Virus record (IMG/VR): IMGVR_UViG_3300027840_000013
Coordinates: 1-20,553 of that record
Length of the DNA: 20,553 nt
Origin: a virus
Strand: one strand, 5' to 3'
Positions 6,940 to 19,808 of the stretch are shown in pieces; within the stretch, counting starts at the first letter, position 1, and every line of letters begins with the position of its first letter. The notes beneath the pieces were generated by a model. That model saw only the letters and a list, made by a program, of their open reading frames with translations, had not been told where the DNA came from and did no database searches. The position numbers and the translations under genes are program-made.

Positions 6940-7329
6940 ATGTCAGATTTCGTAAAGTTAAGCGCACTCGTAGGGGACACATTCACAGTTAAAGAGGTTA
7001 AGGGTTTCACTTATAAGAAGTGGGACAATGACGAAAAGAAAATGCTCACATCCGATATGTGGCAAGATGGGTTCAAAAAAGTATATCAAGTAGAAACCGA
7101 CAAAGGTCAGCTAGATATGGGGCCAGGACAAATTGGACAGCTATTAGAAGGTTCACTTTATAACGGAGTAGCCGATCTAAATGGCAAAACCTTCGCAGTT
7201 AAGTCAAATGGTAAGACGGGGATGGACATTCGTTACTATCTAAACCCAGTCAAACCAACAGTAAAGAACGAAGACACCAGTGAAGATGTACCACTAGAAG
7301 ATATTAACATTGACGACATCCCCTTTTAA
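6940..7329 (+). CDS. Phage single-stranded DNA-binding protein
   Basis: A 129-residue protein. The body (about 1-105) has an alternating beta pattern with aromatic residues (VKGFTYKKWD, DGFKKVYQVE, GMDIRYYLNP) that suits an OB fold. The end is an acidic tail finishing in DDIPF, the conserved SSB C-terminal tip that docks helicases, nucleases and other partners. The start at ATG 6940 follows AAAGGG. A TTG-initiated extension to 6910 exists but lacks a good site. SSB coats single strands during replication and recombination, fitting its place next to NinB- and NinG-like genes. The body does not look like canonical bacterial SSB, so it is a divergent phage type. Confidence 0.75.
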   Translation: MSDFVKLSALVGDTFTVKEVKGFTYKKWDNDEKKMLTSDMWQDGFKKVYQVETDKGQLDMGPGQIGQLLEGSLYNGVADLNGKTFAVKSNGKTGMDIRYYLNPVKPTVKNEDTSEDVPLEDINIDDIPF

Positions 7330-7338
7330 GGAGTAGTT

Positions 7339-7467
7339 ATGAAGTGGCGAGTAGTCTACAAAATCGGTCAGAAGTGGCTCACTAAATACGAGTACGGCTC
7401 ATGGGATGAAATAATGATTAAATACATGGGTAAGTCAGCGAGGTTATTCCAATGCAAAGATCATTAA
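7339..7467 (+). CDS. Hypothetical 42-residue protein
   Basis: A basic, aromatic-rich small protein (MKWRVVYKIGQKWLTKYEYG and onward) preceded by AAGGAG with 6-base spacing. It overlaps the start of the NinB-like gene by 16 bases, so the pair is probably coupled. No membrane segment and no motif recognised. The good ribosome binding site and the tight packing are the reasons to call it. Confidence 0.5.
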   Translation: MKWRVVYKIGQKWLTKYEYGSWDEIMIKYMGKSARLFQCKDH

Positions 7468-7763
7468 AACAAAATGCAAGCCTACATGTGCTGTTCTCTG
7501 AACTAGCCGATGCCTTAAATGACGCAGGGCTAGACCAAAGGGTAGTTCTTAAACCGAGTGTTGAAATCCCCTGGAACTTGGAATCAGTCAAATCTAACCT
7601 ATGGAAACCTATTCAGAAAGCTGTCACTCATAAGGATTCAACCACCGAACTTGACTCAGTAGAAATAGATAAAGTCTACGATATTCTCATGCGACATCTA
7701 GGTGAAAAGTTTAACATTTTTGTTGACTTTCCATCCAACGAAGAAGATAATAAGCATATATAA
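7452..7763 (+). CDS. NinB-like / KQN-family phage recombination protein
   Basis: A 103-residue protein. It opens RSLKQNASLHVLFSELADAL, which matches the start of a widespread phage family in which a (K/Q)QN...LH signature begins the first helix, as in the lambda NinB/Orf region. NLWKPIQKAV, STTELDSVEIDKVYDIL and LGEKFNIFVDFPS complete the family-like pattern. NinB proteins bind single-stranded DNA and assist recombination; here the SSB is upstream and a NinG-like nuclease is nearby, similar to a lambda nin region. The family resemblance is good; functional equivalence to NinB is inferred. Confidence 0.62.
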   Translation: MQRSLKQNASLHVLFSELADALNDAGLDQRVVLKPSVEIPWNLESVKSNLWKPIQKAVTHKDSTTELDSVEIDKVYDILMRHLGEKFNIFVDFPSNEEDNKHI

Positions 7764-7797
7764 TAGTTAGTACTTTCAAAATCTTGGAGCAAGAACA

Positions 7798-7821
7798 AGT
7801 AGATCATAGAAGACATCTACT
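7798..7821 (+). other. Perfect 7-bp hairpin upstream of the lysozyme-like gene
   Basis: AGTAGAT (7798-7804) and ATCTACT (7815-7821) form a perfect 7-base stem with a 10-base loop, about 28 bases before the proposed ATT start. There is no following T-tract, so it is not a typical terminator. It may shape access to the ribosome binding site. Confidence 0.4.
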
Positions 7822-7848
7822 GACTATCACTAAAAGAGAGAGGGAAAA

Positions 7849-8304
7849 ATTAGCAAAAGAAAACTAATACTCTTACTTGCAGCGCTTTGTGCACTGTTAG
7901 TAGCAGGAAGAGTAATCGGAGCAAGTTTAACCAATCAAACACAAACAAAAATCGTTGAAACGACCCAGAGTACCCCAGAACCTATAAAAACGCCACAGAG
8001 CGAGCCTGTGAAGGTTACAGAGCCTATTAAACCAGTTGTTGTGGACACCAATGCGTGCCTCACAGCAATGCGTCAGGTATTTCCACAAGAAACTTGGCAG
8101 GTAGGTGAGGCCATTATGAGAGCTGAAAGTGGGCTAAACCCAAATGCGGTATCTAGTACCAATGACCACGGTTGTTGGCAGATACACGACTGGGCCTTAT
8201 ACGACCCACTAGAAAACACTAAAGTAGCGTACTACAAGTACACTCACTACGGATGGCAACCCTGGAGCGTATATAACTCAGGAGCTTACCTAAAATGGCT
8301 TTAA
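7849..8304 (+). CDS. Secreted lysozyme-like (SLT-fold) muralytic protein, probable ATT start
   Basis: The mature domain (residues about 68-151) carries AIMRAESGLNPNAVS, with the likely catalytic Glu near residue 93, then DHGCWQIHDWAL, the pattern of lytic transglycosylase/lysozyme-like domains. Two cysteines (Cys70 and the one in GCWQ) may pair. No ATG/GTG/TTG start lies between the upstream in-frame stop (7831-7833) and the domain except an internal GTG at 8008. Reading from ATT 7849, which follows AGAGAGAGGG, gives SKRK, a strong hydrophobic stretch (LILLLAALCALLVAG) and an AxS-like cleavage region, i.e. a convincing signal peptide, then a Thr/Pro-rich linker. The GTG start would remove the signal. 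It is encoded with early genes, far from the lysis genes. Confidence 0.75.
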   Translation: MSKRKLILLLAALCALLVAGRVIGASLTNQTQTKIVETTQSTPEPIKTPQSEPVKVTEPIKPVVVDTNACLTAMRQVFPQETWQVGEAIMRAESGLNPNAVSSTNDHGCWQIHDWALYDPLENTKVAYYKYTHYGWQPWSVYNSGAYLKWL

Positions 8305-8363
8305 TATGTTGGGCGATAACATTCTACATAGTCTGGGGACTGATGAACTTAAAAACTACATAG
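8295..8363 (+). CDS. Possible 22-residue membrane peptide
   Basis: A tiny frame encoding MALICWAITFYIVWGLMNLK plus TT, almost entirely one hydrophobic helix. Its ATG overlaps the end of the lysozyme-like gene by 10 bases and a GGAG lies 10 bases upstream. The stop codon touches the GGAGGG site of the next gene. Very short, but the hydrophobic pattern and coupling argue that it may be translated. Confidence 0.4.
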   Translation: MALICWAITFYIVWGLMNLKTT

Positions 8364-8372
8364 GAGGGTAAA

Positions 8373-8741
8373 TTGACTGATAGGGCAAGACTCAAGAAAA
8401 AGCTTGATACCATACATTCTAAACTGATTAGAAGCATTGAAAAATCTTGCGTGGTCTGTGGATCACAAGAAATGCTACAGTGTGGACACCTTTTTACCAG
8501 AGCTGCCCTATCAACCCGTTGGGACATAGAGCCAGATGGAAATTGTCATTCTCAATGCGCCAGCTGTAATTATAGGCATGAACACGATTCGTACCCATAT
8601 AATAATTGGTACATAGAAAAGTTCTCAAAAGATAAATGGGATGAACTACATAGAAGACACAAGGCTTGTCGGAAGTTCACACTTTTAGAAATGGAAGAAA
8701 TGTGTCAAGAGTTTAAAAATCTTTTGACACAAAGCGAATAG
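8373..8741 (+). CDS. NinG/HNH-like recombination nuclease
   Basis: A 122-residue protein starting at TTG with GGAGGG a few bases upstream. A zinc-type CVVCGS motif (about residue 26) is followed by QCGHLFTRAALSTRWDIEPD and NCHSQCASCNYRHEHD. This matches the NinG/Rap family, where C..C, a central GH, RWD and QC..CN build an HNH-like fold. NinG-family proteins act on branched DNA or in recombination-dependent replication. It lies downstream of the SSB and NinB-like genes. The C-terminal 40 residues are helical and charged. Confidence 0.8.
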   Translation: MTDRARLKKKLDTIHSKLIRSIEKSCVVCGSQEMLQCGHLFTRAALSTRWDIEPDGNCHSQCASCNYRHEHDSYPYNNWYIEKFSKDKWDELHRRHKACRKFTLLEMEEMCQEFKNLLTQSE

Positions 8742-8752
8742 TTTAGTATAAT
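8724..8752 (+). promoter_or_regulatory. Consensus sigma70 promoter
   Basis: TTGACA (8724-8729) and TATAAT (8747-8752) are both perfect consensus with an ideal 17-base spacer. The -35 box lies inside the end of the NinG-like gene. The start point would be near 8759, giving a leader of under 20 bases before the small membrane gene, and the transcript would run on into the GC-rich block. It is the strongest promoter visible in the window. Confidence 0.85.
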
Positions 8753-8774
8753 AAAATAAATTAGTGGAGGGAAC

Positions 8775-8954
8775 ATGTCAGATCACTATTTAGAAGAAGA
8801 ACCAAAAGACTGGGTAACAGTCATACACGACACTTTTACAAAACACACTTGTTTTGCAATGATAGTAGCACTCATACTAGGATTTATCTTGAAGCCAGCC
8901 ATTATTGGACTGGTATTTTTGTTTTGGTTATTATGTGTAGCTTGGAGCTTATAG
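8775..8954 (+). CDS. Small membrane protein
   Basis: A 59-residue protein with an acidic N-terminus (MSDHYLEEEPKDW) and a hydrophobic C-terminal half (about 27-58: FAMIVALILGFILKPAIIGL and beyond) that could form one long helix or a short hairpin around the Lys-Pro pair. The ATG follows GGAGGG. It lies directly behind the consensus promoter and is the last AT-rich gene before the GC-rich block. Strong expression is predicted. Role unknown; host-membrane functions such as exclusion are possible. Confidence 0.72.
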   Translation: MSDHYLEEEPKDWVTVIHDTFTKHTCFAMIVALILGFILKPAIIGLVFLFWLLCVAWSL

Positions 8955-8981
8955 GAGAGACTACGACTATTGTCTAACTAT

Positions 8982-9041
8982 GTTGGGGCGATGCATAACC
9001 CCAACCTAGATGGCCAGAAGCCATAGAAACTTTAATCTAGG
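8982..9041 (+). promoter_or_regulatory. Tandem hairpins in the leader of the GC-rich block
   Basis: GTTGGGG (8982-8988) pairs with CCCCAAC (8999-9005). Directly adjoining it, CCTAGAT (9005-9011) can pair with ATCTAGG (9035-9041), enclosing an alternative inner hairpin ATGGC (9010-9014) with GCCAT (9020-9024). The last strand runs into the GGGAGG ribosome binding site (9040-9045) of the first gene, so folding could limit translation. No T-tract follows, so these are not simple terminators. Confidence 0.55.
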
Positions 9042-9051
9042 GAGGCGTGAC

Positions 9052-9372
9052 ATGGATTACCAACAAGAGTTGGATAAGGCAGTCCGTCTCCACAAAGCTC
9101 TCCTTGTTGTACACAAGGGGTGTGCTGGACTGCGACCCGAATACGAACAGCTCAATGCTGTCGTATGTAACTTCGTTCTGGGCTTCGTGCCTGTCATCAA
9201 CGTCCAGTGCCCTCACGACAAGGACTGTCAGGTAACAGGGCGTGAGACGTTCGGTGGCTTGGAAGACCTCATAGAACAGCTTGAAGTCATCATCTGGTGG
9301 CTCCAACTGGAGGTCTGCTACGAGACTGAGACCGACTACGACGACCTTTCAACCACGGGGGGTGATGGGTAA
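9052..9372 (+). CDS. Hypothetical acidic protein, first gene of the GC-rich block
   Basis: A 106-residue protein starting at ATG 9052, chosen because GGGAGG (9040-9045) lies just upstream; the in-frame ATG at 9010 sits inside the leader hairpins without a site. The N-terminal part is helical (QQELDKAVRLHKALLVVHKG). The middle contains CPHDKDC, and the C-terminal part is helical and very acidic (GLEDLIEQLEVIIWWLQLEV). No family recognised. The stop overlaps the next start (TAATG). Confidence 0.68.
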   Translation: MDYQQELDKAVRLHKALLVVHKGCAGLRPEYEQLNAVVCNFVLGFVPVINVQCPHDKDCQVTGRETFGGLEDLIEQLEVIIWWLQLEVCYETETDYDDLSTTGGDG

Positions 9373-9494
9373 TGTGTCCGCACATCTGGTTCTTTGCCAC
9401 TTTCGGACACATCCACATCCGCAAGTGTGCCATCTGCAACCGAGTTCAGTTCAGGACAGCCGATGACGAAGAGTGGACGGAGGTGGAGATGTGA
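9372..9494 (+). CDS. Small zinc-finger-like protein
   Basis: A 40-residue protein beginning MCPHIWFFATFGHIHIRKCA. Cys2, His4, then KCAICNR (CxxC) provide four possible zinc ligands, followed by an acidic tail. The start overlaps the previous stop and its stop overlaps the next GTG start. Composition matches the block. Short, but coupling and the metal-ligand pattern support it. Confidence 0.5.
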   Translation: MCPHIWFFATFGHIHIRKCAICNRVQFRTADDEEWTEVEM

Positions 9495-9712
9495 AGAAGA
9501 AGGAGCGGTGTAAGCTCTGTAACGACAACGCCGTTCTCACAAACCATCACCACTTCTTTCCCAAGAAGAAGCACAAGAGCAATCGCATCCACCGCATCTG
9601 TTGGCCATGCCACAAGGCGTTCCATGTCAAGGTTCGGGAATGCCTCAAGGCTTGGAAGAACGATTGCCGTAAGTGCCAGTACGCAGGCGTCTGTATGCAC
9701 TATGGGAGGTGA
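9491..9712 (+). CDS. Small HNH-type nuclease
   Basis: A 73-residue basic protein: CKLC (residues 7-10), then TNHHHFFPKKK with adjacent histidines (19-21), NRIHRICWPCHKAFH (CxxCH at 37-41, His45) and a C-terminal CRKCQYAGVC. This Cys2-HH-N-Cys2-H order is the HNH fold with structural zinc. The GTG at 9491 is chosen because GGAGG lies 7 bases upstream; a GTG 18 bases earlier is less well placed. HNH enzymes of this size may nick DNA during replication or packaging, or act as homing nucleases. In an imported block, a mobility role is worth considering (inference). Confidence 0.75.
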   Translation: MKKKERCKLCNDNAVLTNHHHFFPKKKHKSNRIHRICWPCHKAFHVKVRECLKAWKNDCRKCQYAGVCMHYGR

Positions 9713-9716
9713 TACC

Positions 9717-10040
9717 ATGAAGATATACGTAGCAGGCCCCTACACCGCCGACCCCGAGGTTTGTACCCACGTTGCCATTCTGAATGGAGACATCCTCCTT
9801 TCACTGGGCTACGCACCGTACATCCCTCACCTGACCCACTTCTGGCACAACCAGTGTCCTCACCACTACGAGACCTGGATGACGCTGGACTTTGAGTGGG
9901 TCGCATCCTGCGATGTGCTCTACAGGCTCCCTGGGGAGTCCAGTGGGGCTGACAGGGAAGTTGACCTGGCTACATCACTCGGCATCCCTGTCGTCTACTC
10001 GCTCTCCGAACTGCTGGAACGATTCCCATTGGAGGTGTGA
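9717..10040 (+). CDS. Nucleoside 2-deoxyribosyltransferase-like protein (DUF4406 type)
   Basis: A 107-residue protein that begins MKIYVAGPYTADPE, the signature start of the deoxyribosyltransferase-like fold. CDVLYRLPGESSGADREVDL carries the conserved acidic and Gly/Ser active-site segment, and ATSLGIPVVY follows. Members of the wider fold transfer or hydrolyse N-glycosidic bonds of nucleosides and nucleotides. Phage copies are thought to act in nucleotide metabolism or base modification. The ATG is preceded by GGGAGGTGATACC. The last codons (GAG GTG) also form the ribosome binding site of the next gene. Confidence 0.8.
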   Translation: MKIYVAGPYTADPEVCTHVAILNGDILLSLGYAPYIPHLTHFWHNQCPHHYETWMTLDFEWVASCDVLYRLPGESSGADREVDLATSLGIPVVYSLSELLERFPLEV

Positions 10041-10044
10041 GATG
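10031..10044 (+). repeat. Repeated stop/ribosome-binding/start unit (second copy 10255-10268)
   Basis: The 14-mer GGAGGTGTGAGATG occurs exactly at 10031-10044 and 10255-10268, each combining Shine-Dalgarno and start ATG; in the first copy it also supplies the stop TGA. A near copy, GGAGGCGTGACATG, lies at 9041-9054. This unit is absent from the AT-rich genes. Confidence 0.75.
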
Positions 10045-10254
10045 TACTGTGCCACGTGTGGTCAGAAGGAGACCCCCGTCAAAACCAAGCGTTTTGACAG
10101 GGATACGGGAGAGCCCGTCTACGTGGACTACTGTCTCAACCCCAACTGCGTTGTGGGCAGGCAGAACGTCTGTGGCATCAACACGGGCCACACCATCGGG
10201 TTCTTCATCGGGACCTGCAAGAACTGCGGGTTCCAGCCCTGCGACTGGTACTAG
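10042..10254 (+). CDS. Small multi-cysteine zinc-ribbon protein
   Basis: A 70-residue protein with CATC (residues 3-6), CLNPNC (about 31-36), a further Cys near 44, and CKNCGFQPC (about 59-67). This could bind one or two zinc ions. It starts within the repeated 14-base start unit and overlaps nothing. Zinc-ribbon proteins of this size are common in phage early regions and often bind nucleic acids or host RNA polymerase; no target can be deduced. Confidence 0.68.
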   Translation: MYCATCGQKETPVKTKRFDRDTGEPVYVDYCLNPNCVVGRQNVCGINTGHTIGFFIGTCKNCGFQPCDWY

Positions 10255-10265
10255 GGAGGTGTGAG

Positions 10266-10457
10266 ATGACCTTCCCTATCCCTGACAAGGAGAAGAACCC
10301 CGTCTGTGAAGAGTGCGTCAAGTTGACGCCTCACAAGGCGACATCCTGTCAGAACCCGTGCTCACATCTCGTCTCGTGGGCATCGCACCAAGCAACGGCT
10401 GACATCGTGGCTATGGCCATCAAGTCGGCACGAGCCATCCGAGAGAGCAGGGGCTAG
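10266..10457 (+). CDS. Hypothetical 63-residue Cys-containing protein
   Basis: Starts in the second copy of the 14-base start unit. N-terminal CEECVKLTPHKATSCQNPCSH offers a CxxC...CxxxCxH metal site; the C-terminal half (ATADIVAMAIKSARAIRES) is one helix. No family recognised. It is the last gene before the structured noncoding segment. Confidence 0.62.
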   Translation: MTFPIPDKEKNPVCEECVKLTPHKATSCQNPCSHLVSWASHQATADIVAMAIKSARAIRESRG

Positions 10458-10472
10458 TCTAGCCGAGCCGAA

Positions 10473-10637
10473 GGGCAGTTACCGCCTAGATGAAATGCCC
10501 CTAACCTACCAGCTTTCCAGGTTACTGGTTGAACAACAAACCTGGCTACACCGTCCTTCTCCCACATTCAGCTGACTGGCTAACATCTGGCCAGCGTGGG
10601 GGAAGGGCGACCAACCTTTATATGTCAGCAACCGCTG
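10473..10637 (+). ncRNA. Candidate structured noncoding RNA (four tandem hairpins)
   Basis: The 211-base gap 10458-10668 has no plausible gene but has dense secondary structure. Hairpins: GGGCA 10473-10477 with TGCCC 10496-10500; CCAGGTT 10517-10523 with AACCTGG 10539-10545; a long stem 10552-10565 with 10596-10609, 14 consecutive pairs including two G-U wobbles, topped by CTGGC 10576-10580 with GCCAG 10590-10594; and CAGC 10626-10629 with GCTG 10634-10637. No T-tract follows the long stem, so a simple terminator is unlikely. It could be a small regulatory RNA, a processing site, or a leader controlling the phosphoesterase gene. No known RNA family was recognised. Confidence 0.5.
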
Positions 10638-10668
10638 GCTCCACTAAGGCAAAGTAAGGAGGAAGACT

Positions 10669-11790
10669 ATGCCAATCAACTGGAGCGATGAGATGAAGAA
10701 CGAACTCGTCTCGTCCGACAACCTGCAAGAGTTTGCAGACAAGTACGGTCTGTCGTTCGCAAACGTAGACCGCAAGAGACGCAAGTTGCGTGCCAAGACC
10801 AAGCCCGTTGACGGACCGTCATCTATCGTTCGGTATCTCTCAAGGGGTCGTACTGTCGCTGAACTGGAAGACAAGGGTATCTACCTTGACGACCTGGACA
10901 TTGACGGCTACGAACTCTACGAGACCCAGAACAACCGCTACGAGAAGGTCTACCTCTTGTTTGCCAAGCCCACCGAAGAGCTCGTCCTTCAGGACAAGAC
11001 GTGGACTTACAAGCAGGCGGTTGACCCTGACGGCAACGCCCAACCCTACTACATGATGCAGATGCAGGGAGACTTCGACAAGCTCAAGATAGTCCCCCTC
11101 GCAGACGTGCATTACGGAGCCAGGGCGTGCATGGTTGACAAGTTCAAGGAGTACGTCAACTGGATTGCCGCCAACGACAACGTGTTCTGCTTCATCTCGG
11201 GAGACCTCTTCGAGAACTCTCACGGAGACTCCAACAAGGGTCTCTCCCACTACGAGCAGGATGTCCGCCCCCAAGACCAGGTGACTGACATGTGTCGGTT
11301 GCTCGCACCCATCGCCCATAAGATACTGTGGGCCATCCCCGGCAATCATGAGGACCGCTCACGAACGAGGGACTACGACCCTCTGGAGCGTCTCTGTGAA
11401 CGCCTGCACGTACCTTACAGCTACGAACCCATCTTCGTTGACCTGCTGTGGAAGGGGAATGTCTTCTCTTTCCACGACCAGCACGGTCGTGCGGGTGGTC
11501 AGACCAAGGGTGGCAAGATGAACGCTGCCGCTCGTCCCCAGGAGATGCAAGAGCACATCATGTTCACCGTGATGGCTCACGTGCATGACGGGGACGTCTC
11601 AAGGAACACCAGGATTTGTCGCAATCGTGTGGACTTCTACCTGGAGTTCCGCAAGCAGTACATAATCGTCTGCCCTTCGTTCTTCGGCTACTTCGGTAGC
11701 TACGCAAGCAAGGCTGGCTACAAGCCAGGTTCGTACGGTTCCATCAACATGGACCTGTTCGCCAACGGGGACTACCACGCCAATTCGTAG
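10669..11790 (+). CDS. Calcineurin-like metallophosphoesterase with N-terminal HTH-like region
   Basis: A 373-residue protein preceded by AAGGAGGAAGACT. All five metal-binding motifs of the calcineurin-like phosphoesterase fold are present in order: DVH (146-148), GDLFE (178-182), GNHED (225-229), HDQHG (269-273) and AHVHDGD (303-309). Such enzymes use two metal ions to cut phosphoester bonds; phage members are often nucleases or phosphatases related to SbcD/Mre11. The first 45 residues (LQEFADKYGLSFANVDRKRR) resemble a helix-turn-helix, suggesting DNA binding. It is the largest gene of the GC-rich block and lies behind the structured RNA. A terminator-like hairpin follows. The substrate is unknown. 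Confidence 0.85.
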   Translation: MPINWSDEMKNELVSSDNLQEFADKYGLSFANVDRKRRKLRAKTKPVDGPSSIVRYLSRGRTVAELEDKGIYLDDLDIDGYELYETQNNRYEKVYLLFAKPTEELVLQDKTWTYKQAVDPDGNAQPYYMMQMQGDFDKLKIVPLADVHYGARACMVDKFKEYVNWIAANDNVFCFISGDLFENSHGDSNKGLSHYEQDVRPQDQVTDMCRLLAPIAHKILWAIPGNHEDRSRTRDYDPLERLCERLHVPYSYEPIFVDLLWKGNVFSFHDQHGRAGGQTKGGKMNAAARPQEMQEHIMFTVMAHVHDGDVSRNTRICRNRVDFYLEFRKQYIIVCPSFFGYFGSYASKAGYKPGSYGSINMDLFANGDYHANS

Positions 11791-11798
11791 AGGCTCCA

Positions 11799-11823
11799 GG
11801 GGCTGCCTACAAAGCCCCCTTTC
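11799..11823 (+). terminator. Terminator-like hairpin at the right end of the GC-rich block
   Basis: GGGGCT (11799-11804) and AGCCCC (11813-11818) form a perfect 6-base GC-rich stem with an 8-base loop, followed by CTTTC. The T-run is short, so termination may be partial. AT-rich DNA resumes immediately afterwards. Confidence 0.5.
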
Positions 11824-11842
11824 AATAATTAAAGGAGGAATT

Positions 11843-12052
11843 ATGATAACAGAAGCTGAACAAGACCTAGAAAGAATAAGATTTACATCAGACAAACTCT
11901 TAGATGTAAAATATCGTGAAGGCAATAAGGAACATGGTGGAGACCTAATGACCATGACAGTAAGGGAATATATAACCAATGCCTTAGACGAGAATACTGA
12001 CCAAAGGGTTTATCTATTAAAAGCTCTTGAGGCATTAAATGATAAAAATTAA
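11843..12052 (+). CDS. Small EHGG-motif phage protein (MazG-like helical fold possible)
   Basis: A 69-residue helical protein preceded by AAAGGAGGAATT. KYREGNKEHGGDLMTMTVRE followed by DENTDQRVYLLKALEAL resembles a family of short phage proteins in which KxxxGxxEHGG is followed by a conserved acidic helix, related to all-alpha nucleotide pyrophosphatase (MazG-type) folds. If so it may sense or hydrolyse nucleotides. Composition is again AT-rich, matching the main phage genome. Family assignment is moderate only. Confidence 0.6.
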   Translation: MITEAEQDLERIRFTSDKLLDVKYREGNKEHGGDLMTMTVREYITNALDENTDQRVYLLKALEALNDKN

Positions 12053-12170
12053 GTGGGTAAAGCGTGCTCATCAATGGTGCAAAACAACAATATCAGAAAA
12101 CAAAGGTAAAATTATTCAAACCCAAGAATGGGCAAGTAGTAAAAAAGAATTGGAGGAAAAAGATGTATAA
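12039..12170 (+). CDS. Hypothetical 43-residue basic protein
   Basis: Encodes MIKIKWVKRAHQWCKTTISE and continues to a charged end. Its ATG overlaps the upstream gene by 14 bases, with GAGG 6 bases before it, and its stop overlaps the next gene by 8 bases. It explains this stretch better than a GTG-initiated N-terminal extension of the downstream gene. Confidence 0.5.
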   Translation: MIKIKWVKRAHQWCKTTISENKGKIIQTQEWASSKKELEEKDV

Positions 12171-12504
12171 AGTAAAAATGTTCTTTGGAAGCAAATATAA
12201 CTATGTACTAGACGAACAAGAATACCAAGAGTTCCTAGAATACAAAAAATGGCTGGATACGCCCTGTTGTGAATTAAATGATAAGTGGTGTGGTCACGAA
12301 TACTGGCCTATGGATAAGTGCGATATATGTGACCAAGAAACCTGTCCAGAAGAAAACAAGCACTGTAGTTGCAGACACATCCCATACGACCAAGAAACCC
12401 TAGAAGATAGAGTAGATGACCTTGAATGTGATGTCCGACAATTTATGACCACCCAGAAACTAATAAACAAAGTAATAGAAGAACAGATAAGCGAAAAGGA
12501 GTAG
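12163..12504 (+). CDS. Cys-rich putative metal-binding protein with coiled-coil tail
   Basis: A 113-residue protein from ATG 12163, supported by GGAGG 6 bases upstream; an in-frame GTG at 12064 gives a longer reading but overlaps another small gene and lacks a site. N-terminal 35 residues: a short beta/helix region. Residues about 34-70 contain CC, CGHE, CDICDQETC and CSCRH, enough ligands for two zinc ions. The tail (QETLEDRVDDLECDVRQFMT) is an acidic coiled coil. Function unknown; oligomeric zinc protein is a fair structural guess. Confidence 0.68.
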   Translation: MYKVKMFFGSKYNYVLDEQEYQEFLEYKKWLDTPCCELNDKWCGHEYWPMDKCDICDQETCPEENKHCSCRHIPYDQETLEDRVDDLECDVRQFMTTQKLINKVIEEQISEKE

Positions 12505-12509
12505 ATCAG

Positions 12510-12671
12510 ATGGAGGGTAAAGAGATAATGAAATACAGCTGTATCAGCTTCTTCAAGAAAGGCAAATGCCCTCGTGCCCATACATCAAATTGTCCTTTTG
12601 TAATAAAAGGTATTGACTATTCTAAAGAGTGTATTTATAGTAAAGTTAAACTAGATACGAAAAGTAGGTAG
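12510..12671 (+). CDS. Small zinc-finger-like protein, last gene of the rightward operon
   Basis: A 53-residue protein. CISFFKKGKCPRAHTSNCPF has the spacing of a compact Cys/His zinc finger, similar to CCCH-type fingers. ATG 12510 has AAGGAG 8 bases upstream; an alternative ATG at 12528 (47 residues) has GGAGGG before it. The C-terminus is basic. The stop codon lies inside a 10-bp inverted repeat (12662-12699). Confidence 0.62.
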   Translation: MEGKEIMKYSCISFFKKGKCPRAHTSNCPFVIKGIDYSKECIYSKVKLDTKSR

Positions 12672-12699
12672 TCAGGGGAGGGATCCTTTCTACCTACTT
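12662..12699 (+). terminator. 10-bp perfect inverted repeat over the last plus-strand stop
   Basis: AAGTAGGTAG (12662-12671) and CTACCTACTT (12690-12699) form a perfect 10-base stem with an 18-base loop. A second small hairpin (GCC 12702-12704 with GGC 12715-12717, plus TTT/AAA pairs) follows. Without a long T-tract this may be a termination aid, a 3' stabiliser or a protein-binding site. Confidence 0.5.
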
Positions 12700-12743
12700 A
12701 CGCCCTTTTATAAAGGCAGACTATCATTATAGCACATAATACA

Positions 12744-12769
12744 ATACCCCGTCAATAAAGGCGGGGTAT
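12744..12769. terminator. Bidirectional terminator between convergent operons
   Basis: ATACCCCG (12744-12751) and CGGGGTAT (12762-12769) form a perfect 8-base stem with a 10-base loop, followed by TTATG on the plus strand. It lies between the end of the rightward genes and the end of the leftward lysis and structural genes, where transcription from both sides must stop. Confidence 0.72.
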
Positions 12770-12775
12770 TTATGT

Positions 12776-12797
12776 AAAAACGGAGGGAGGAACTCCG
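12776..12797 (-). terminator. Terminator of the leftward structural/lysis operon
   Basis: Read on the minus strand, CGGAG (12793-12797) and CTCCG (12781-12785) form a stem with a 7-base loop, followed by TTTTT (12780-12776). This is the standard intrinsic terminator form and lies just after the endolysin stop. Confidence 0.68.
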
Positions 12798-12806
12798 CCG
12801 ATACAA

Positions 12807-13733
12807 CTAAAAGTTTTTAGGATCTGTTGGATTATTGAGTCCAGCAAGTACCGAGATAATCGCTGTTACTGTCCCAACTACGGTCTTAATAAGGTCTGTT
12901 TGTCCTGGTAGTACGAATACTGCCAATGTTGACAATATAGCAATAAGTTCAATTATCACTACTGGGGATTTAAATCTGTCTAATATTTCTTTCACATCTA
13001 CTCCTATCTTTATCTCTGTGGCCTGCGTAGAGGCCTCTTCTTGGCGTTTTTTCTCCTCCTCGGCTATCCTTAGTCGTTCTGCTTCTAGCAGGGCTTTCTC
13101 TTCTTGTGCTTTACGTTCATTCTCTATCCTTTCGGCTTCTAATTTATCAGCCAATTCTTTTTCAAGTCTAGCCTGTTCTTCGGCTAGTTTCTTTTGCTCT
13201 TCGGCTATGCGTTGTGCTTCAGCCTTAGCTTTAGCGTCTGCTTCTGCCTGTGCCTTTTCAGCAGCGATACGCTTTTCTTCAGCGAGTCTAGCCTGTTGAG
13301 CGTTATAAGCATCTTGGTCAAAGTTCACATCTTGGTTTGGTCTTAGGACTCCTAGAAATGAAGTATAGTTATGAGACACATACCTAGATGGTTTAGAACC
13401 ATCCCATGGGGAGTCCCAGTTTTGGTCAAGAGAGACAAAGTAATTAGTATTACCCTCTCCTGTACAGATAGCTATATGACCATAAGTGCCCATATTCCAA
13501 ACAGCCACATCACCACGCTTCGGTACGAAGCTAGGGGTGTTGGCTATTTTAGTAAAGGCTGAAGTGTTGTATGAGTTCCAGGTGTCCTTAGCGGCAGGAG
13601 CACCCTTTACGGTTACTTTTAAGTAGTTCCGTTGGTAGTCTGCGTATAAGTCCATACATTGAGCACCGTAGGATTTATCGTCATCTATGTACTTACCAGC
13701 CCTTTCGCTGAAGAATCTGTCTGCTATTGTCAT
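12807..13733 (-). CDS. CHAP endolysin fused through a coiled coil to a holin-like membrane tail
   Basis: A 308-residue protein in three parts. Residues 1-135: a CHAP amidase/peptidase domain, with YGAQCMDLY (Cys26), KRGDVAVWN and GTYGHIAIC (His86). Residues about 140-237: a long Ala/Glu/Lys/Arg coiled coil. Residues about 250-308: LDRFKSPVVIIELIAI and a second hydrophobic stretch, ending ISVLAGLNNPTDPKNF, which resembles the C-terminal two-helix region and NNPT(D) ending of phage holins of the Phage_holin_1 group. Endolysin and holin are normally separate proteins. No signal peptide is seen at the N-terminus. It overlaps the upstream 44-residue gene at one base. CHAP domain is certain; the holin resemblance is good but unproven. 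Confidence 0.85.
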   Translation of the reverse strand: MTIADRFFSERAGKYIDDDKSYGAQCMDLYADYQRNYLKVTVKGAPAAKDTWNSYNTSAFTKIANTPSFVPKRGDVAVWNMGTYGHIAICTGEGNTNYFVSLDQNWDSPWDGSKPSRYVSHNYTSFLGVLRPNQDVNFDQDAYNAQQARLAEEKRIAAEKAQAEADAKAKAEAQRIAEEQKKLAEEQARLEKELADKLEAERIENERKAQEEKALLEAERLRIAEEEKKRQEEASTQATEIKIGVDVKEILDRFKSPVVIIELIAILSTLAVFVLPGQTDLIKTVVGTVTAIISVLAGLNNPTDPKNF

Positions 13734-13867
13734 TAGTCCTCCTTTATGTCTTTTTCTACATTAAATAATTTACGGTCCTTGAACTCTTCTTGCTTACTGT
13801 CGTTCCAATTAAAGGTGGGTCTAAGGTATCCGCAGACTCTGCTATAAATCTCGCATTTTGTTCTCAT
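13733..13867 (-). CDS. 44-residue stand-alone NrdD-like glycyl-radical C-terminal peptide
   Basis: The reading frame is open to 13957, but ATG 13867 has AAGGA upstream and its ATG overlaps the previous stop (ATGA). The peptide contains YSRVCGYLRPTFNWN followed by SKQEEFKDR. The C-terminal radical domain of class III ribonucleotide reductase (NrdD; E. coli RVCGYLG...PFN.GKQEEV) has the same order, with the glycine of CGYL being the radical site, here Gly13. The rest of NrdD is absent and not in this window. It lies between the coiled-coil membrane protein and the endolysin. It may be a spare radical domain, by analogy with GrcA (YfiD) for pyruvate formate-lyase, or a metal-binding peptide. Motif match is strong, function speculative. 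Confidence 0.65.
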   Translation of the reverse strand: MRTKCEIYSRVCGYLRPTFNWNDSKQEEFKDRKLFNVEKDIKED

Positions 13868-17892: not shown

Positions 17893-18714
17893 TTATGTCC
17901 TTATAAATAAACAATTTTCATTTGTTGCTGTTTCAGCGTACCTACGCCATGTTTTTGCTTCGTTGTCCCAACTCATATCTGCCATGTGTAGTAGGGCTTC
18001 TTTGAACTCAGGATTGCCTAGAATTGCTTGTAGGCAGTAGTTTCGGGCTTCGTCACCTCGTTGGAGATTAAATAGGCATTTGGAAGCTCGTAGGTTAGCG
18101 TCTGCTATCTCATATCTCCATGTGCCTACCTTTATATATGCTTTATATTCCCTTAAAGCCTTCTCCCACTCGCCCCTGTCAAAGTATTCTTGGGCTAGAT
18201 AATACTTATTTCTAACAGATTTATCCTTTAGTAGAATCCTTAGATTTCTATCTGGGTCTACTTCGTGCTGGGGTGATTTTCTGTATCTTATTTCTATATT
18301 GGTTTTCTTGGGGTTGCATACGACATATTCATGTACTTTACCCTGATACCTAAGCCCTTTTTTGAAGATTCTTGGTCCTCTGTGAAAACTTGTATCACTC
18401 CAAGATACCTTTACTTCTAATGCGTCATAATTGTCATCTAGTTCTATCTCGCTGACAGGTGTTAAAAGTATCTCGTCAGCGTCTATTATTAGATTCCAAT
18501 CCCCATTTGATTTTGAAAGGGCGTAGTTTCTAGCGTCAGAGAAGTCATCTTTCCACTTATGGTGGTAGACTTTTCCATACTTAGAAGCTATCTCTACAGT
18601 TTTATCAGTAGATCCAGTATCTACGATTATTATCTCGTCTATACCCTTGAGTGATTTAAGACACTCTTTAAGCATAGCCTCTTCGTTTTTAACTATTAAA
18701 CAAGCTGATAGCAT
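17893..18714 (-). CDS. Family 2 glycosyltransferase with TPR-like C-terminus
   Basis: A 273-residue protein. LSACLIVKNEE (2-12) starts the GT-A nucleotide-binding fold, IIVDTGSTDKT (29-39) follows, and IIDADE (76-81) supplies the DxD metal site. From about residue 155 the chain becomes helical with TPR-like repeats (YYLAQEYFDRGEWEKALREY, then LRASKCLFNLQRGDEARNYC). This matches SunS/SPbeta-type glycosyltransferases, which transfer sugars onto protein or peptide. It lies inside the fibre cluster, immediately downstream of the collagen-like fibre gene, so a virion protein is the most likely acceptor (inference). The sugar enzymes at 19-1745 may make the donor. Confidence 0.88.
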   Translation of the reverse strand: MLSACLIVKNEEAMLKECLKSLKGIDEIIIVDTGSTDKTVEIASKYGKVYHHKWKDDFSDARNYALSKSNGDWNLIIDADEILLTPVSEIELDDNYDALEVKVSWSDTSFHRGPRIFKKGLRYQGKVHEYVVCNPKKTNIEIRYRKSPQHEVDPDRNLRILLKDKSVRNKYYLAQEYFDRGEWEKALREYKAYIKVGTWRYEIADANLRASKCLFNLQRGDEARNYCLQAILGNPEFKEALLHMADMSWDNEAKTWRRYAETATNENCLFIRT

Positions 18715-18722
18715 GATTCCCC

Positions 18723-19808
18723 CTAAGATGCTTCATATGTTCCTACAAGTATCATTTTGTCACTAGCTGCCCAAGTAAATGGTGTACTAGCACCGAGATT
18801 CGCATAACCAGTCCAAGTACCATTGGCTAGTGGTGCAACTGGGTATATTTTATTAGTAATTATGTCTGTTGCTCCCATCCACCAACTTCCATTAGCGTCT
18901 AGGAAGAATGCAGTACCAGTTACATGGTCTGTGGCGTTATTAGCAGGTGTTGCAAATGCGGCAGCTCCCACAGAGATGCTGGTACCACCGAGAGTAACGA
19001 CAATACTGTAGTGAACGGTTTTACCGATTTGAGTCCACCTAGCAACGACAGTTCCAGTTGAGCCAACATTTAGATTAGTAAGTCCTGGATTCCATGTTGC
19101 CCATGCACCCCCAGGCTGACCAGCAGTAGTGGCTAACTTGGCGTTATTAACTACAGCATCTAGTGTCCATGTAGCGCCAGAAGAAGATACTGTTATATCA
19201 CCCTTATCTCCATCTGCTATCGTTCCAGTTGGTCCAGTAGGACCTGTGGCACCGGCAGTTCCCTGAGTTCCCTGAGACCCTTGCGTTCCCTGTGTCCCCT
19301 GAGACCCCTGAGTCCCAGTAGCACCTACAGTACCTTGAGTGCCTTGAATACCCTGAGTACCTTGCGTGCCTTGAGACCCTTGTGGTCCAGTTGGGCCAGC
19401 AACGGTTGAAGTTGCACCAGTCGGTCCTGTTGCTCCGATGGTACCCTGACTGCCTTGTGGACCAGTGGCTCCTGCCGTACCCTGTGTGCCTTGTATTCCC
19501 TGTGTTCCCTGTATTCCTTGAGTTCCCTGACTTCCCTGAATACCAGTAGGACCAGTAGGCCCAGTAACAGTAGAATCGGCTCCAGTTGCTCCGGTTGGGC
19601 CAGTAGGTCCAGTACCAGAAGCTCCAGTGGGTCCTGTAGGACCAGTTACACCTGCACCTGTTGGTCCAGTTATTCCTACTCCCGTAGGTCCAGTTGGGCC
19701 AGTTGGACCAGTATCACCAACACCTGGACCTGTTGGACCCGTAGGTCCCGTTGCTCCATCTATGCCATCTCGGCCTTGTTCTACAATTTTAGCGAATACT
19801 CTTGTCAT
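18723..19808 (-). CDS. Collagen-like phage fibre protein
   Basis: A 361-residue protein. A short N-terminal anchor ([18 protein letters not shown]) is followed by about 180 residues of Gly-X-Y triplets, first GPT-rich, then GTQ/GIQ/GSQ-rich, which would form a collagen triple helix. The C-terminal 155 residues begin [18 protein letters not shown] and contain [13 protein letters not shown] and [19 protein letters not shown], a beta-rich trimeric tip domain widespread in tail fibres. Thr-rich triplets are possible glycosylation sites, and a glycosyltransferase gene follows. The gene overlaps the upstream reading frame by 20 bases. Confidence 0.9.

Follow-up and report, generated by a model that had tools for sequence, protein, structure and literature searches.

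A GC-rich cassette of HNH and metallophosphoesterase genes in an AT-rich phage genome from IMG/VR

The IMG/VR virus record IMGVR_UViG_3300027840_000013 contains a GC-rich gene block within an AT-rich phage genome. We analyzed positions 1 to 20,553 of this record, a stretch of 20,553 nucleotides referred to here as the window, and found that the block is a real, sharply bounded, foreign-looking cassette, far beyond what chance would produce. In its core, a metallophosphoesterase (MPE) gene follows a gene for a small HNH nuclease-like protein, and this core recurs, with nearly identical codon usage, in a diverged relative of the window phage. We propose, with about even confidence, that the block is an accessory cassette of tailed phages that probably infect Patescibacteria, that it enters these phages repeatedly from an unsampled GC-rich gene pool, and that it acts in DNA or nucleotide processing early in infection. 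The mobility, donor, host, timing and enzymatic action of the cassette are parts of this proposal that we infer.

Composition and limits of the block

Measured over 500 nucleotides, GC content rises from about 0.37-0.44 to 0.53-0.58 across roughly 9000-11800 and then falls to 0.36. A maximum-likelihood fit placed the GC segment at 9078-11819, with a GC content of 0.556 inside and 0.404 outside. The maximum-scoring segment, 8985-11819, reached a score of 237, whereas 1000 shuffles of the window in 150-nucleotide chunks averaged 40 and never exceeded 89. The right edge is sharp, with GC dropping from 0.55 to 0.30 within about 100 nucleotides at the hairpin at 11799-11818. The left edge is slightly softer (GC of 8955-9051, 0.47). 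The original prediction, made from the letters of the window, had described a GC-rich block with sharp edges at about 8955 and 11822. Our analysis recovers one such segment (0.55 versus 0.40), and the predicted limits are off by no more than about 100 bases at the left edge and a few at the right.

Codon choice and ribosome binding sites change together with composition, as had also been predicted. Third-position GC is 0.62-0.85 in the open reading frames (ORFs) of the block and about 0.36 in the other ORFs of the window. The synonymous codon usage of the block departs strongly from that of its own genome (G = 582 with 41 degrees of freedom, df; G/df 14.2). By eye, three block genes share the ribosome binding site GGAGG(C/T)GTGA(C/G), whereas the AT-rich genes use types like AGGAGGAATT. 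The noncoding DNA of the block is also GC-rich (0.47-0.63, versus 0.24-0.44 for noncoding DNA elsewhere). A second GC bump, at 19000-19750, lies in a collagen-like gene of Gly-Pro repeats and is unrelated to the block because third-position GC there is only 0.25. This gene (18723-19808) encodes GPTGPTG repeats, and the bump is due to amino-acid composition.

Recurrence in other phages and the origin of the cassette

Against phage records, the whole window had no match by megablast, and tblastn of the HNH protein and of b1, the first protein of the block, was equally negative for phages. Searching IMG/VR directly with the MPE alone found no relative. An alignment (profile) query reached a single close one, 53% identical over its full length, at locus L107 of a 52.6-kb contig (G007) from a related but diverged phage. 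G007 and the window phage share 57-58% identity in the SSB-like protein and 33-48% in lysin domains. In G007 the HNH gene lies directly 5' of the MPE gene as part of the same core. The G007 cassette is the most GC-rich stretch of its contig (0.531 versus 0.437; 0 of 885 other windows as high), its limits, like those of the third cassette described below, having been chosen by eye after the genes were seen. The same genes thus form a local GC peak in G007, and the gradual composition in relatives that would have spoken against a discrete block was not seen. The two phages carry the cassette in different orientations relative to their SSB-like and lysin genes. A small zincin-like ORF (HELLH / HEIIH) is a gene that changes place between them, lying near the terminase gene in the window (3770-4030) and adjoining the MPE gene in G007 (L107:7094-7393).

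A third carrier, C39 (locus L192), belongs to a Patescibacteria bin and has three proteins in common with G007 in the same order; its HNH protein is 35% identical and its MPE 26%. The original suggestion of a transferable module is reasonable in light of the foreign-looking composition and the recurrence of the core in G007 and, more distantly, in C39, with mobility remaining the putative part.

The cassettes of the window and G007 share a codon style that their genomes do not. Their codon usage is nearly identical (G/df 1.40). A comparison of the non-MPE cassette genes of the window with the G007 MPE gene gave G/df 1.41, which rules out shared protein sequence as the cause. The corresponding value for bulk genes, represented in G007 by a sample of long ORFs, is 11.9, and for the G007 cassette against its own genome it is 4.4. 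Dinucleotide signatures agree, with a distance of 0.073 between the cassettes and of 0.143 (window) and 0.098 (G007) between each cassette and its own genome. At conserved residues of the two MPEs, 0.573 of codons are identical, versus 0.520 expected from shuffling, which puts synonymous sites close to saturation. Near-saturated sites combined with the same codon style make slow amelioration of one old insertion unlikely.

From these comparisons, repeated uptake from a GC-rich pool not yet sampled appears to fit best, with maintenance of the composition in situ as its main rival. Three observations favor acquisition. GC-richness extends to the noncoding DNA of the block, where codon selection offers no explanation. 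Across their family, MPE genes are not markedly GC-rich, with a median third-position excess of 0.05 over neighboring genes in 92 cases, and intrinsic GC-richness of the family is ruled out as the cause by this value. Finally, the ribosomal-protein genes of candidate Patescibacteria hosts lack the style, showing a mild preference for NNC codons and none for NNG codons or for C at fourfold sites.

Several results weigh against recurrent acquisition. A GC-rich donor was not found, and in IMG/VR the MPE of G007 is the only close one. The cassettes show more T than G at fourfold sites, a pattern absent from all 16 loci of comparable third-position GC, which would make the donor an unusual one. We found no convincing att site, target duplication, integrase gene or terminal repeats at the block edges. 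The C39 cassette is only mildly GC-rich (0.457 versus 0.392; 72 of 1015 windows as high) and its MPE falls in a different clade, so this carrier supports the association of the genes and not the composition argument. An ORF resembling the one at 11843 lies 3' of the MPE gene in both the window phage and G007, which fits common inheritance as well. In a regression of GC at first and second codon positions on GC at third positions, the window, G007 and L192 sit only 1.1-1.4 standard deviations under the line, which does not decide the matter.

The cassette may instead have been inherited once, in the ancestor of the window phage and G007, with its composition actively kept by selection on codons for high expression or on nucleic-acid structure, or by local mutational bias. 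We regard this alternative as possible but on the unlikely side. It would account for a common codon usage that persists despite nearly randomized synonymous sites, for the shared ORF 3' of the MPE gene, and for SSB-like proteins whose divergence (58-60% identity) is close to that of the MPEs. Codon selection could also yield the predominance of C and T over A and G at fourfold sites. However, it leaves the GC-rich noncoding DNA and the codon preferences of the candidate hosts unaccounted for, and the structural genes of both phages, presumably highly expressed, show no GC shift.

Had the window phage alone received the block in one recent insertion from a GC-rich donor, with no wider significance, sharp edges and foreign codon usage would be expected. 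A related phage contig (G304; terminase 64% and SSB-like protein 58% identical) has no MPE gene, as a single insertion would predict, but this contig may be partial; L003 and L004, which are nearer relatives, end before the cassette site. Because the core recurs in G007, where it too is GC-rich for its genome and keeps the same codon usage, a single insertion is an incomplete account and we consider it rather improbable. An assembly chimera, in which a foreign fragment was misjoined into the contig, is very improbable even though only one contig spans the block: it would need two independent joins, the core recurs in G007 with the same composition, and relatives of the left-flank terminase (72%) and the right-flank lysin (about 70%) sit together on one contig, G001. 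The original prediction had named chimerism as one of two findings that would refute it, and as far as we checked it is unlikely, with flanks from one kind of phage and a core found elsewhere. The phage population was sampled more than once, as two other IMG/VR records (L002 and L003) match window positions 1-3905 at 100% identity.

The probable hosts are Patescibacteria, on evidence that is suggestive. A scan of genome contigs for MPE donors returned only Patescibacteria metagenome-assembled genomes (MAGs) at 40% identity or above, and the closest cellular MPEs are chromosomal genes of Patescibacteria. A terminase piece 58% identical to that of the window is present in a Patescibacteria bin, compared with at most 38% in a control phylum. 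The phylum sample of the C39 bin coincides with that of a Parcubacteria MAG.

Genes of the cassette and their proposed role

The block carries seven ORFs and a structured gap (Table 1). The HNH, deoxyribosyltransferase-like, zinc-ribbon and metallophosphoesterase genes named in the original prediction are all present on the plus strand, and the block ends in a hairpin as described. An Rfam search gave chance-level matches only, and a tRNA/tmRNA search found none.

Table 1. Features of the GC-rich block and its borders (window coordinates)
Feature	Position	Strand	Remarks
Operator-like near-perfect inverted repeat (TGTGTCAAGAGTTT/AATCTTTTGACACA)	8701-8731		Overlaps -35 box; z -4.7
Sigma-70-like promoter, TTGACA-17-TATAAT	8724-8752	+	12/12 consensus; putative activity
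Hydrophobic 59-aa ORF, AT-rich (GC 0.36)	8775-8954	+	Between promoter and block, outside block
Left-edge hairpin, GTTGGGG-10-CCCCAAC	8982-9005	+	No T run; z -3.1
b1, 106 aa	9052-9372	+	No credible family match
b2, 40-aa Cys/His-rich protein	9372-9494	+	From ORF list; no credible family
HNH nuclease-like small protein	9491-9712	+	GTG start; CxxC..HH..CHxxxH and second Cys cluster
DUF4406/DUF7768, nucleoside 2-deoxyribosyltransferase-like	9717-10040	+	Profile and PHROG matches
Zinc-ribbon-like protein, 70 aa	10042-10254	+	Paired CxxC motifs, from sequence; no credible family match
b6, 63-aa Cys-containing protein	10266-10457	+	Only a weak PHROG match
Noncoding gap, 211 nt, GC 0.54	10458-10668	+	5' of MPE gene
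Two-tier hairpin	10552-10609	+	14-bp outer stem and shorter inner stem; z -4.5
MPE, 373 aa	10669-11790	+	N-terminal HTH (helix-turn-helix)/winged-helix-like helices; DP1/Mre11-like phosphoesterase domain
Right-edge hairpin, GGGGCT-8-AGCCCC	11799-11818	+	Weak T tail; z -0.9; putative terminator
AT-rich 69-aa ORF	11843-12052	+	Just outside block; G007 homolog 41% identical over 44 aa

The MPE is most likely a DNA exonuclease or hairpin nuclease, as judged from its profile matches and predicted fold. It matches phrog_7339 ('DNA repair exonuclease') with an E value of 2.1e-29. An AlphaFold2 model built with 71 homologs (mean pLDDT 94) places helices of the HTH/winged-helix type in the first 100 residues, ahead of the phosphoesterase domain; the DNA-binding-like reading of these helices comes from their secondary-structure pattern. 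In a fold search with the phosphoesterase domain, the best match was DP1 of PolD (Z 18.9 over 223 residues, 3.4 A), followed by Mre11 (14.5) and LpxH (13.8), and a PDB sequence search with the MPE profile gave no credible match. The protein has the DxH, GD, GNH, H and HxH ligands and the fold (Z 13-19) of the calcineurin-like superfamily. Its metal ligands D146, H148, D179, N226, H227, H272, H304 and H306 are invariant or at least 90% conserved among the 71 homologs, including the catalytic His of the GNH motif.

The HNH proteins of the window, G007 and L192 share 17 invariant columns, with a conserved zinc-binding CxxC and HH..CHxxxH core; an HlpB-type match (25 bits) falls under the cut-off. 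The DUF4406 protein matches PF14359 (36.5 bits, cut-off 22), PF24963 (37.8 bits, cut-off 26) and phrog_355 (1.1e-22). Deoxyribosyltransferase-like genes adjoin related MPE genes in four viral loci (L136, L141, L168 and L185), and one follows a chromosomal MPE pair in the Patescibacteria contig L188, although it scores under the Pfam cut-offs. G007 has a DUF4406 gene about 0.7 kb downstream of its MPE gene. No such gene was present in 80 terminase loci. The recurring neighborhood supports a shared role for the two genes in DNA or nucleotide processing, in agreement with the nucleotide-metabolism role first proposed as one option for the block.

The structured noncoding DNA predicted for the block is borne out by the two-tier hairpin, which is more strongly structured than the gap as a whole (z -2.3). 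Hairpins beside the MPE genes of G007 (L107:5849-5897) and C39 (L192:6702-6751) share one architecture with differing but paired stems: an outer stem of 12-13 bp, short internal loops, an inner stem of 4-5 bp and the loop UUACCA. One lies 5' and the other 3' of its MPE gene. The window hairpin is comparable in architecture and different in sequence. Across 2.2 Mb, a descriptor of this architecture matches about once per 15 kb when both strands are counted, which makes three hairpins beside MPE genes unlikely by chance, with the reservation that the descriptor was fixed after the first examples and that intergenic DNA is hairpin-enriched. Searches for the loop motifs TTACCA and GTAGCTACAA revealed no recurrent class in the loci examined. 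We consider the UUACCA-loop hairpins a candidate structured RNA or DNA element.

The promoter upstream of the block is the only one with a 12/12 match to the consensus within 5600-13800. The perfect consensus agrees with the original prediction, but the block lies directly behind it only roughly, across a gap of about 300 nucleotides that holds an AT-rich ORF. The inverted repeat over the -35 box looks like a repressor site, a putative function, and the window holds no second exact copy of it. Because of this overlap the promoter does not imply immediate expression, and the earlier claim that the block would be expressed at once is not supported.

We propose that cassettes with this core enter such phages repeatedly from an unsampled gene pool with a third-position GC near 0.75. 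In the window phage the core is joined by the deoxyribosyltransferase-like enzyme, small Cys-rich proteins and the hairpin between the HNH and MPE genes. Early in infection, the cassette would be expressed from the regulated promoter at 8724. The MPE would bind DNA through its N-terminal helices and trim or cut it, as a 3'-5' exonuclease of the DP1/Mre11 type or as a hairpin nuclease, and the HNH protein would nick DNA. The DUF4406 enzyme might then cleave or exchange the base of the resulting deoxynucleotides, and the products could feed phage DNA synthesis, recombination or both.

Other roles seem less probable to us. The cassette could be a homing-type unit, in which relatives lacking the cassette are cut by the HNH protein and receive a copy through recombination. 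The HNH gene and a two-tier hairpin beside the MPE gene are found in all three carriers, and a NinG/Rap-like gene and a weakly NinB-like gene lie in the early region around the cassette. We nevertheless think homing unlikely since we identified no empty cognate site, the HNH protein lacks an obvious DNA-targeting domain, and the MPE of C39 comes from a different clade. A bolder version, which we hold to be doubtful, is that Patescibacteria phages carry the cassette as a self-spreading element, with the HNH protein and MPE acting on the two-tier hairpin adjoining the MPE gene, and that it circulates in a GC-rich pool of its own. If so, diverged phage backbones would carry the cassette in one codon style.

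More doubtful still is a counter-defense module, in which the MPE and the deoxyribosyltransferase-like protein would degrade the nucleotide signals or NAD-like messengers used in host immunity. Enzymes of both classes are able to act on nucleotides, and the cassette sits in the early accessory region. However, the DNA-binding-like helices at the N terminus and the closest folds, DP1 and Mre11, point to DNA, and PADLOC, whose library covers defense and not counter-defense proteins, gave no matches. No match to a defense family speaks for the anti-host role suggested at the outset.

Foreign composition is commonly taken as a clock of recent transfer. Two phages whose synonymous divergence is near saturation and whose cassettes keep the same foreign style would point instead to a hidden GC-rich pool or to a composition held in place. 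Also of interest are the DP1/Mre11-like phosphoesterase, with its DNA-binding-like helices, and the recurring neighborhood of phosphoesterase and deoxyribosyltransferase-like genes, in phages whose probable hosts, the Patescibacteria, are little studied.

Outside the block, two NAD-dependent epimerase/dehydratase-like sugar-nucleotide genes adjoin the terminase gene (window 19-1745), and a glycosyltransferase-like gene lies at 17893-18714. G007 and C39 carry similar epimerase/dehydratase-like and glycosyltransferase-like genes.

Comparison with known systems

We compared the MPE to DP1, the small, proofreading exonuclease subunit of archaeal PolD. DP1 is its best structural match, the conserved metal ligands are of the kind found in DP1 (PMC4996933), and there is a weak NCBIfam match. 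DP1 has an OB domain of about 90 residues inserted within its phosphoesterase domain (PMC4996933). The 263 model residues of the MPE (111-373) span about 417 DP1 positions, of which 223 are aligned, leaving no room for such an insertion, and the NF003118 score is 17.6 bits against a cut-off of 445. Since family score and OB insertion both fail, the MPE is not a true DP1. It differs further in its N-terminal DNA-binding-like helices, and no DP2 partner was seen in the 20.5-kb record, which is a genome fragment. The MPE shares its phosphoesterase fold and the motifs DxH, GD, GNHE and HxH with Mre11/SbcD and PHROG 7339, but its structural score is lower for Mre11 (14.5) than for DP1. No Rad50/SbcC partner was present among the window ORFs, the genome being incomplete.

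The DUF4406 protein matches the DUF4406/nucleoside 2-deoxyribosyltransferase family over its full length and above the curated cut-offs. It differs from that family in being encoded within a GC-rich nuclease cassette.

Patescibacteria chromosomes carry tandem MPE genes (L187:3626-5976, L188:4586-6942, L189:4544-6906 and L203, G145). In L187-L189 the metal ligands are intact in one copy, and the other is degenerate, having lost the GNH motif. The active copies are the closest cellular relatives of the window MPE, 36-45% identical over a full alignment. These genes differ from the cassette in being chromosomal, in being paired with a degenerate copy and in having no cassette-type HNH gene adjoining them. 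L188 and L189 show no clear GC shift.

The cassette belongs to a known class, the accessory ('moron'-like) cassettes of phages. It resembles them in its sharp composition edges, its several small early genes of putative role, and its position between NinG-like and lysis genes with a promoter upstream. It differs in that the block has no demonstrated promoter of its own inside and in that its core and codon usage recur in another phage despite nearly randomized synonymous sites.

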